Positions 10,568 through 13,239 of a DNA stretch of 36,672 bases are shown here, one piece after another. This DNA comes from Acidimicrobiia bacterium (GTDB taxonomy: Bacteria; Actinomycetota; Acidimicrobiia; IMCC26256; JAENVU01), in assembly GCA_025361725.1 (NCBI GenBank), contig JANYJV010000140.1, forward strand, positions 73,428 through 110,099. The letters are read 5' to 3'. Made by a program: the position numbers and the translations under genes. The notes under the pieces were generated by a model that was not told the DNA's origin, did not search any database, and saw only the letters and a program-made list of their open reading frames with translations. Numbering within the stretch: the stretch's first letter is position 1; every line of letters begins with the position of its first letter.

Positions 10568-11368
10568 ATGGCGTATTCGGTCAAGGACAAGCACGTGCTC
10601 GTGACGGGCGCGTCCACCGGAATCGGCGCCGCACTCGCCATCGGCTTCGCCCAGGCCGGCGCAACGGTCGGCATCTGTGCGCGCCGAGAGCAGGAACTGG
10701 CCGAGGTACTCGCCGAGGTCCGGGAGCATGCGCCGGAGTCACGCATGTGGATCATCGATCTCGACGACCTCGACGGGCTGGATGACTTCGCCGCGGAGGT
10801 CAGTATCGAACTCGGTGGCCTCGATGTCCTGGTCAACAACGCCGGCATCCCCAAGCGCAAGCACGTCCTCGCGCTCACGCCCGAGATCGTCGAAGCCGTG
10901 ATGCGGATCAACTACTTCTCGCCGGTTCGTCTCACCCTCGCGTTTCTCCCCGAGCTGATTGAACGCTCAGGCCGGATCGTGAACATCTCTTCCGTTGCTG
11001 CTCGGCTGGGTCCGCCGGGCGAAGCTGCGTACACCGCCTCCAAGGCTGCACTCACCGGTTTCTCCGAATCCATGCAGGTGGATCTGGGCATCGCCGGTCA
11101 CGATGTCGGCGTGCACGTGGTGAACCCGGGCGTGATCGACACGCGTCTGTTTCACCTGCCGGACAACGACCCGTCACTTGCGCAGATCGAAGCGCTGCCG
11201 ACCCGAGCGATGGTGGACCCGGTCCTCACGGCATTGGACGACGGCACCTTCGAGATCTACGTGCCCGGCTGGTTCGCCGACGTGGTCGGTGGCAAGTTCC
11301 CCGACACCGGCGCATTCCTCGCCGGCACGGTCTCCTGGGCCAGGGATCAGGCCGCAACGACCCCCTGA
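10568..11368 (+). CDS. SDR family NAD(P)-dependent oxidoreductase
   Basis: VTGASTGIGAA, LVNNAGIP, ISSVAA, YTASKAA; strong SD AGGAGG upstream. Confidence 0.92.
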   Translation: MAYSVKDKHVLVTGASTGIGAALAIGFAQAGATVGICARREQELAEVLAEVREHAPESRMWIIDLDDLDGLDDFAAEVSIELGGLDVLVNNAGIPKRKHVLALTPEIVEAVMRINYFSPVRLTLAFLPELIERSGRIVNISSVAARLGPPGEAAYTASKAALTGFSESMQVDLGIAGHDVGVHVVNPGVIDTRLFHLPDNDPSLAQIEALPTRAMVDPVLTALDDGTFEIYVPGWFADVVGGKFPDTGAFLAGTVSWARDQAATTP

Positions 11369-11378
11369 CGTCCGTTTC

Positions 11379-11417
11379 GGCGTCCTGAAGTGCTGCCCCA
11401 CAGCACTTCAGGACGCC
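11379..11417. repeat. Palindrome H3: 17-bp perfect arms GGCGTCCTGAAGTGCTG / CAGCACTTCAGGACGCC, 5-nt loop
   Basis: Read directly; contains the stop codon of the AbiEi-like ORF; near-identical to 12397-12443. Confidence 0.92.
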
Positions 11418-12349
11418 AAAATCGTGGAGCGGTCCCTGAGGGCGACCCGGAGGGCGCCGATGAAGTGACGCCCGCCGTCGGCGAGATCGGACGTGACGGC
11501 AGTGATCGGCAACCAGTGCGCTTGGATGAGCCGATGACGACGGTTCGAATCCGCTGCGGTCGCGACGAAACCAGTGTGAAACTCGTCGGAGTCGTATTCG
11601 ATGGTGATCCGAGCGTCCGGGTACGAGAGGTCGACTCGACCGATGAACTCCAAGCCGTCGTAGATCTTGAACTGGCGCGTCGGGTCGGGTAGACCAGCGT
11701 CCCGGATGAGCTGCATCACGATCGTTTCGCGCTCGCTTTCGGTCGGTACTGTCGGCGCCGCCAGGCGAGCCTGCACCAGGGTTCGGAGTGTCCGCACTCC
11801 GGGCCGACCTGAGCGCGCCAACCGGGCGATCGCACGATCCAAGTCAGCCAACGTGGTCAGTTCCCGGCGCAGTGCATTCTCGAGTGCGAGTTCGACAGTA
11901 CGAAACCCGCGCACTGCGCCGAGGTCCAAAAGCGTTCGTTCGATGGTCGTGACCGGAATTGCGCCGATCATCGTGACGTCGGCGTCGGTCAGCGCCTTGG
12001 TCTCGTGCACACGAACACCGTCGAGTCGGGAACGACGCCACCGAGGACACGAGATCTCGAGGAGCGTTGCGCTCCCTCCCGGACAACCGTAGAGCCATGT
12101 CGCCGCTCGATGAGAGACGGCCGCTCTCGACCCCGCGGCCAGGCAGACGGTCAGGAGACGGCCTTCATGAGTGTCCGGGCTACCGGCGAAGCGCAGGACG
12201 GTTTCGTAATCGCTCAACCACTCCCCCCGGGCGCGTCGCTGCCGGATCTGGGAGTAGGTAAAGCCGGCGGACAGTGCGTCCGCGACCAGAAAGAGCCCGT
12301 GACGCTGGGCAGCGAACGCAGCAAGTGTGCGTGTCGGTTGGTGTCCCAT
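11408..12349 (-). CDS. AbiEi-type winged-helix antitoxin-like protein with C-terminal DUF559/Vsr-like nuclease-fold domain
   Basis: N-terminal GLFLVADALSAGFTYSQIRQRRARGEWLSDY...; C-terminal GRVDLSYPDARITIEYDSDEFHTG...DSNRRHRLIQAHWLPITAVTSDL; start at 12349 or 12379. Confidence 0.78.
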   Translation of the reverse strand: MGHQPTRTLAAFAAQRHGLFLVADALSAGFTYSQIRQRRARGEWLSDYETVLRFAGSPDTHEGRLLTVCLAAGSRAAVSHRAATWLYGCPGGSATLLEISCPRWRRSRLDGVRVHETKALTDADVTMIGAIPVTTIERTLLDLGAVRGFRTVELALENALRRELTTLADLDRAIARLARSGRPGVRTLRTLVQARLAAPTVPTESERETIVMQLIRDAGLPDPTRQFKIYDGLEFIGRVDLSYPDARITIEYDSDEFHTGFVATAADSNRRHRLIQAHWLPITAVTSDLADGGRHFIGALRVALRDRSTILAS

Positions 12350-12396
12350 CCGTCGTATTCGAGCACTTGGGTGCGACATCGACGCTCGACGCCCGC

Positions 12397-12443
12397 TTTT
12401 GGCGTCCTGAAGTGCTGTGTCACAGCACTTCTGGACGCCAAAA
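12397..12443. repeat. Palindrome H4: 23-nt arms TTTTGGCGTCCTGAAGTGCTGTG / CACAGCACTTCTGGACGCCAAAA
   Basis: 22/23 complementary; shares GGCGTCCTGAAGTGCTG arm with H3; lies just upstream of the AbiEi-like ORF. Confidence 0.92.
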
Positions 12444-12471: not shown

Positions 12472-13239
12472 TCAGTCGAAGAGGTCGGGTTGTTCGGCGG
12501 TGACGACGTCCCAGAGGGGTTGGAACGAGAAACGACCGGCGACGTGAGAACCCACCTGCTCAGCCGTGCGAGCCGCCATCTCCGGGCCAATGAGCACCGG
12601 GGTACCCGCCGCCTCGGCCAATAACTGCGCCTGACAGGACCGCTCCATCGTGATGAACCACCACACCGCCTCCTCGACGGAATGGCCGACGGTCAATAGC
12701 CCGTGGTTTCGCAGGATCACGGCCTTGTTCTCGCCGAGCGCCCCACCGATACGCCGGCCCTCCTCGACGTCGAGGACAACACCGGTGAAGTCGTCGAACA
12801 GCCCGTGATCGTCGAAGAAGGCGCACGCGTCCTGGGTGATCGGGTCCAGGCGACGGCCGAGGGACGACCACGACTTGCCGTAGATCGAATGTGAATGTGC
12901 CGCCGCGATCACGTCAGGCCGGGCCGCGTGCACCTGCGAGTGGATCGCGAATGCGGCACCGTTCACCGGCGCGTTCCCCTCGACGACCTCGCCGGTGTGA
13001 CTCACCAGCAGGAGATCCGAAACCCGGATCTGCTTGAAGCTCTTGCCGAATGGGTTGACCCAGAAGTGGTCTTCGAGTTCGGGATCCCGGGCCGTGATGT
13101 GCCCGGCGACGCCCTCGTCGAATCCGAACTTGCCGAACAATCGGAACCCGGCGGCGAGCCGCTGCTTGCGGTATAGCCGTTCCTCCTCGATCGTACGGTT
13201 CTCCGGGAACGTCGGGATCTCGATATCAGTCGTCGCCAT
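12472..13239 (-). CDS. Class II aldolase/adducin family protein
   Basis: GVAGHITARDP, AAHSHSIYGKSWSSLGR, AVILRNHGLLTVGHSVEEA. Confidence 0.92.
   Translation of the reverse strand: MATTDIEIPTFPENRTIEEERLYRKQRLAAGFRLFGKFGFDEGVAGHITARDPELEDHFWVNPFGKSFKQIRVSDLLLVSHTGEVVEGNAPVNGAAFAIHSQVHAARPDVIAAAHSHSIYGKSWSSLGRRLDPITQDACAFFDDHGLFDDFTGVVLDVEEGRRIGGALGENKAVILRNHGLLTVGHSVEEAVWWFITMERSCQAQLLAEAAGTPVLIGPEMAARTAEQVGSHVAGRFSFQPLWDVVTAEQPDLFD

Follow-up and report, generated by a model that had tools for sequence, protein, structure and literature searches.

In the open-access literature, the only dedicated enzymes that we found for short dispersed palindromes are the RAYTs, of the Y1/HUH type, and no paper linking AbiEi, DUF559 or MTES_1575 proteins with palindromic repeats was found there. 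RAYT genes are mostly single, vertically inherited and flanked by palindromes, genome-specific copies of which lie close to the 3′ ends of genes and at convergent junctions, and REP palindromes can persist without the RAYT gene (PMC2817692, PMC3116915, PMC8049555, PMC3733652). The CGTC REPs, found mainly in alphaproteobacteria, have stems of 8-9 bp, often occur as paired unlike units and are reported to be without a dedicated transposase (PMC3733652). As for the protein families relevant here, AbiEi antitoxins autoregulate via inverted repeats in their own promoters (PMC7319586), and a review describes EDxHD enzymes as forming dimers on target sites of nearly 60 bp (PMC3943268).

The window, by which we mean the whole stretch of 36,672 nucleotides analyzed here (contig JANYJV010000140.1 of an Acidimicrobiia bacterium, genome G000), harbors on its minus strand an AbiEi-EDxHD gene (11408..12379) encoding 323 aa, with an internal ATG at 12346 as a possible start, where the homologues begin. 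The initial annotation had placed two palindromes around this single gene, one containing its stop codon and the other near its earliest start, and both points were confirmed. Each palindrome, to which no strand is assigned, extends over 47 bp in full: the left one (11375..11421), downstream of the gene, holds the stop codon, and the right one (12397..12443) lies upstream, with 17 bp between it and the earliest start codon and 28 bp between it and the stop of a class II aldolase gene (12472..13239, minus strand), the conserved right neighbour. The conserved left neighbour, a short-chain dehydrogenase (SDR) gene (10568..11368, plus strand), is convergent with the AbiEi gene. The left palindrome reads TTTCGGCGTCCTGAAGTGCTG-CCCCA-CAGCACTTCAGGACGCCAAAA; the two are 0.89 identical over 47 bp and, with their flanks, 83% identical over 64 nt, and each is predicted to fold as RNA at about -35 kcal/mol. 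The arm GGCGTCCTGAAGTGCTG occurs four times in the window at up to 3 mismatches, always inside the two palindromes, against a chance expectation of 0.16, and 0/100 dinucleotide shuffles reached four, so that the repetition is far beyond chance. The palindrome itself often encodes the end of the flanked gene, its last codons and stop included, as in ...LAS-stop from TTGGCGTCCTGA (window 11375-11421 and other loci).

Sequence analysis of the encoded protein revealed an AbiEi match over the N-terminal two thirds (PADLOC AbiEi, 4e-26). Both the winged helix and the C-terminal domain of AbiEi were detected, with Pfam values for AbiEi_4 (9e-5) and AbiEi_1 (0.014) slightly under the Pfam cut-offs; the AbiEi_4 winged-helix segment (PF13338, E 9e-5) covers residues 18-54 (12218..12328, minus strand), where the model is helical, and the AbiEi of S. 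agalactiae (6y8q) was a weak structural match. The C-terminal Vsr/EDxHD (MTES_1575/DUF559-like) domain (11435..11740, minus strand) bears the residues E218, D250, E261, D263, H268, D277 and R280, which include an E261-x-D263 motif and are conserved at 89-100% among 72 homologues. PF18741 (MTES_1575, restriction-endonuclease-like) matches this C-terminal third at 7e-5 in two of four aligned members, and the AF2 model, of moderate quality (pLDDT 68.6), exhibits an alpha-beta-beta-beta-alpha-beta-alpha order. No Foldseek match reached E 0.001; the best meaningful one was the EDxHD homing endonuclease I-Bth0305I (3r3p; prob 1.00, TMt 0.75, E 0.12). The C-terminal domain is thus a predicted nuclease, assigned partly on motif and topology, with a Vsr-like alpha/beta fold and an acidic/His active site. 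The proposal of an AbiEi-like gene with a C-terminal Vsr-like domain was in this way borne out by PADLOC, the conserved residues and the fold match. Searches of the protein against NCBIfam profiles and PDB sequences returned nothing useful or relevant, and no relatives were found in the viral contigs searched.

The PADLOC AbiEi matches could suggest a component of a type IV toxin-antitoxin or abortive-infection system, with the palindromes incidental. This we regard as extremely improbable, since no AbiEii (DUF1814) gene adjoins the AbiEi gene, the metabolic neighbours are conserved across families and the protein carries a fused nuclease domain. The lack of an adjacent AbiEii toxin, already pointed out in the initial annotation, holds for the window as well as for five further genomes, in all of which the neighbours are the SDR and aldolase genes.

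Scanning the window's own genome (3.53 Mb, 151 contigs) revealed about 25 copies of the palindrome, 23 of them distinct and complete and the rest fragments at contig edges, with 0 copies of a reversed-pattern control. All complete copies are exactly 47 bp long (TTTTGGCGTC-N27-GACGCCAAAA). Most of the genomes analyzed are MAGs, at one genome per species. Under the strict pattern, relatives keep this 47-bp frame around a genome-specific inner sequence in 15 of 61 genomes; in GTDB contigs the frame is nearly confined to Acidimicrobiia and other actinobacterial MAGs, and the fixed length is 48 bp in one distant clade. The palindromes are dispersed, at roughly 10-50 copies per genome. Six G000 contigs (C15, C22, C85, C91, C127 and C141) begin or end within a palindrome, and C15 and C22, which have identical palindrome and flank, probably lie next to each other in the genome; assembly from short reads seems to fail at the palindromes. 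One MAG, under the title Bifidobacterium breve (CAMDCC010000*; L082, L086, L091, L092, L125, L127) carries an Acidimicrobiia-type palindrome on six contigs, and its label looks wrong.

The copies are concentrated at gene 3′ ends. Across six genomes, the median distance to a 3′ end is 11 bp, mostly 3-30 bp, and, with genes called by a simple codon-usage caller, junctions with copies were convergent in 40 cases, co-directional in 35 and divergent in three, compared with 48/264/87 for the other junctions at the same loci (chi-square p about 5e-16). This placement, mostly within 3-30 bp of stop codons and often between convergent genes, together with the strong hairpin, is what would be expected of ordinary terminators or mRNA 3′-end hairpins homogenised within a genome, beside which the AbiEi gene would lie by chance. 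We nevertheless find this explanation hardly tenable, because the polarity is TTTT-stem-AAAA, with the T-tract 5′ and the A-tract 3′ of the stem, because a U-tract after the stem (five or more T within the following 8 nt) appeared in 0/45 readings, and because inner stem complementarity is not kept beyond the consensus in most genomes; the strong gene association described below also argues against it. An intrinsic terminator, with a GC-rich stem followed by a U-tract, was rejected on the polarity and the missing U-tract. The suggestion that the palindromes are terminators copied with the gene is not supported, in view of the polarity, the missing U-tract and a palindrome sequence that is tied to the protein. 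Rfam gave no family at gathering score, its weak matches being chance hairpins.

Selection for a full hairpin was likewise rejected, as the arms of a copy are no more complementary to each other than random pairings in most genomes: this applies to G000, G003, G004 and G021, complementarity is even lower than random in G001 and G009, and only G002 exhibits an excess. The arms in G000 are of type A (CTGAAGTGCTG) or type B (CTCACGCGCGCTCC), and the pairs AA, AB and BB number 13, 9 and 1, against random expectations of 13.3, 8.4 and 1.3; random assortment of arm types was seen in most genomes.

The association between gene and palindrome was very strong. A tblastn search with the window protein of loci that had been fetched only for their palindromes matched four other genomes, with the gene beside a palindrome each time. 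Under a strict test (a matched flanking pair at 70% identity or more), matched palindromes flank 42/74 family genes across the order, compared with 1/398 control genes (p about 1.6e-38), and the sole positive control gene abuts an AbiEi element; about 43% of the family genes in the order are without a strict pair. A looser test, admitting any flanking repeat, was positive for 63/74 genes in the order and for 24/46 in other actinobacterial classes, closed genomes included, compared with 2/150 controls; these other classes required the looser test, as the strict one recovered 5/46 pairs outside the order. Each subclade has its own palindrome, of the GCGTC, CGGCACG, GCAAGTGACG or CTTCGGGTGATTAG type.

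The flanking type also predicts the dispersed type. In the congeners G001 and G002 and in G009, of another family, the AbiEi-flanking palindromes differ from those of the window, and dispersed copies matching the respective gene-flanking type number, among the matches listed, about 10, 12 and at least 27. The closed, single-contig genome G021 carries 17 copies of an unrelated palindrome (AACTTCGGG...), with 0 in the control. The flanking pair thus matches the dispersed palindrome in all five genomes tested (G000, G001, G002, G009 and G021), and five genomes without this protein clade (G005, G006, G016, G027 and G033) contain 0 dispersed palindromes. The initial annotation had asked whether copies co-occur with AbiEi genes, and held that copies at many unrelated 3′ ends without such an association would reduce them to ordinary terminators. 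Copies are indeed found at the 3′ ends of many unrelated genes; the link to AbiEi is nonetheless very strong, in the strict comparison as in the prediction test, so that ordinary terminators do not follow.

The cognate gene was not found in four palindrome-bearing genomes, G003 (98% complete), G004, G025 and G057, so either palindromes can survive the loss of the gene or some other factor is at work. Gene loss may explain these cases, as may assembly gaps, given that contigs often end at palindromes. In G011 (L308:409-5822, G011:C86), an AbiEi gene between two family palindromes is split by about 4.4 kb with other ORFs, and the palindromes persist around the interrupted gene. A distant AbiEi paralogue in G000 (C27:3233-4120, L033) has its own, unrelated matched pair (TTCACTGTCCCCGG...), which indicates that a single genome can harbor several such systems; another AbiEi-like paralogue (G000:C28:56795-57666) has an internal TGA and is probably a pseudogene.

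The upstream palindrome lies 17-50 bp before the start, and AbiEi antitoxins are known to bind inverted repeats in promoters (PMC7319586). An AbiEi-like repressor could accordingly use it for autoregulation, the dispersed copies being further binding sites, and the co-variation of protein and palindrome is consistent with this. As a full account we deem it unlikely, since an equal copy stands at the 3′ end of the gene, 3/78 dispersed copies lie between divergent genes and the nuclease residues are conserved at 89-100% in 72 homologues. Its extension, in which the dispersed sites perhaps act on transcript 3′ ends or read-through and the nuclease fold plays no part in their spread, is to be doubted to the same degree. 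Of the operator first proposed for this locus, an autoregulatory role is possible, and an operator-only role is unlikely with the palindrome at dozens of gene 3′ ends.

The order SDR-[palindrome-gene-palindrome]-aldolase is common to six genomes, which belong to four families. At this site, the AbiEi proteins are 37-66% identical, compared with about 62-89% for the neighbours, and the palindromes are unlike between genomes and agree within each pair. A second AbiEi locus with conserved neighbours (L031, L157, L167, L192 and L199, five genomes) exhibits the same pattern of a protein that evolves faster than its neighbours, with 33-49% identity for the protein and about 53-77% for the neighbours. 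Distances between proteins correlate with those between palindromes (Mantel r = 0.49, 0/5000 permutations), and the GCGTC-palindrome proteins fall into one well-supported group; at the level of single genes, the nearest protein also has the nearest palindrome for only 15/41 genes. The shared SDR/aldolase site indicates that the gene is mostly vertically inherited.

The initial annotation had also raised a hairpin-bounded mobile element and suggested a search for empty sites. One was found in the congener G001, where the SDR and aldolase stops are about 15 bp apart at a clean site with no solo palindrome left and the AbiEi gene lies elsewhere. In G002, the SDR gene adjoins another gene and the AbiEi gene is again elsewhere, and G043 has two related copies, 62% identical, at different sites (L142, L169). 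Palindrome-bearing junctions are mostly unshared among congeners, with one common to G001 and G002 whose palindrome sequences differ; these congeneric genomes have diverged to about 75-80% nucleotide identity, too far for clean insertion or target duplication to show. The G001 and G043 sites, as well as the A/B hybrid arms, which fit recombination between copies, would suit a transposon-like cassette in which palindrome, gene and palindrome move as a unit and the solo palindromes are recombination scars, like solo LTRs. We consider such a cassette quite unlikely, given one or few gene copies against 10-50 solos per genome, the retention of one site across six genomes from four families and the missing solo at the G001 empty site. 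A strict palindrome-bounded cassette is reduced by the conserved synteny. The hairpin-bounded element is thus borne out in part: an empty site exists, but the gene is mostly inherited in place and is far outnumbered by solos, and no HUH/Y1 enzyme was found in ten genomes.

The reading that we favor, with fair confidence on the sequence comparisons above, is a system that resembles REPIN-RAYT without homology to it, built around a nuclease that is mostly inherited vertically and that would recognise and maintain a set of palindromes. It would probably comprise two parts, the AbiEi winged-helix/EDxHD nuclease gene and a population of fixed-length palindromes, two copies of which bracket the gene. 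The protein may sit on the palindrome as a dimer with a subunit on each half-site, in the manner of EDxHD enzymes on very long sites; their dimers on targets of nearly 60 bp would suit a 47-bp palindrome of two half-sites. The predicted nuclease could nick or cut at the palindrome or at exposed sites, and repair from existing copies would then spread, replace and homogenise the palindromes. Cutting and recombination near the center would swap arms between copies and yield the random assortment of arm types, which independent half-site recognition also fits. The gene, kept between two palindromes, would evolve fast together with its target, leaving each lineage with its own palindrome. For a broader proposal the chances seem to us about even, namely that these genes represent an undescribed gene-repeat class, widespread in Actinomycetota, in which every AbiEi-EDxHD nuclease recognises a 47-48 bp palindrome of its own and causes it to be copied into the 3′ ends of genes, fast co-change producing a lineage-specific code, as an independent counterpart of REPIN-RAYT.

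A nuclease unrelated to the RAYTs, joined to a binding domain of AbiEi type, thus displays a RAYT-like genomic signature, which points to a possible function for many proteins that are named antitoxins or DUF559/endonuclease-domain proteins and would be taken for anti-phage AbiEi genes. With so many natural pairs of protein and palindrome, the DNA-recognition code can be tested directly, and repeat families reported without a mobiliser, such as the CGTC REPs, can be put to the same flanking test.

In comparison with the systems described in open-access papers, the system looks new as to its parts. IS200/IS605 elements combine a Y1 TnpA with subterminal hairpins, whereas no Y1 protein was found here in ten genomes. 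I-Bth0305I shares the nuclease fold (3r3p) and is reported to form dimers on a site of nearly 60 bp (PMC3943268), but it is a homing endonuclease of phage origin whose DNA-binding part is of another kind; the protein analyzed here has an AbiEi-like part in its place, and the presumed target stands on either side of the gene instead of being split by it. AbiEi of type IV AbiE systems resembles the N-terminal two thirds (PADLOC 4e-26; 6y8q weakly) and differs by its AbiEii partner; the protein analyzed here has an extra nuclease domain and palindromes on both sides that are dispersed genome-wide. The CGTC-tagged REPs are also short palindromes at gene 3′ ends, and the window clade has a GCGTC core, but their stems measure 8-9 bp and other clades here are without CGTC.

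The closest counterpart is REP/REPIN-RAYT. There, a Y1 HUH enzyme acts and GTAG stands at the hairpin end, whereas here the protein is AbiEi plus Vsr/EDxHD, no consensus has a GTAG end and the palindromes are near-symmetric, 47-48 bp long and present in about 10-50 copies. No Y1 transposase/RAYT was detected with the PF01797 profile in ten genomes, a search that matched 5/14 known genomes as a control, and a RAYT as hidden mobiliser was rejected on this ground. With neither Y1 enzyme nor GTAG tag found, the system, whose logic matches that of REPIN-RAYT (PMC3116915, PMC8049555), works like it without being a member. In both, the palindromes on either side of the gene are of the type scattered through the respective genome, the gene is mostly single and vertical, copies lie near 3′ ends and at convergent junctions, and palindromes occur in genomes in which the gene was not found.
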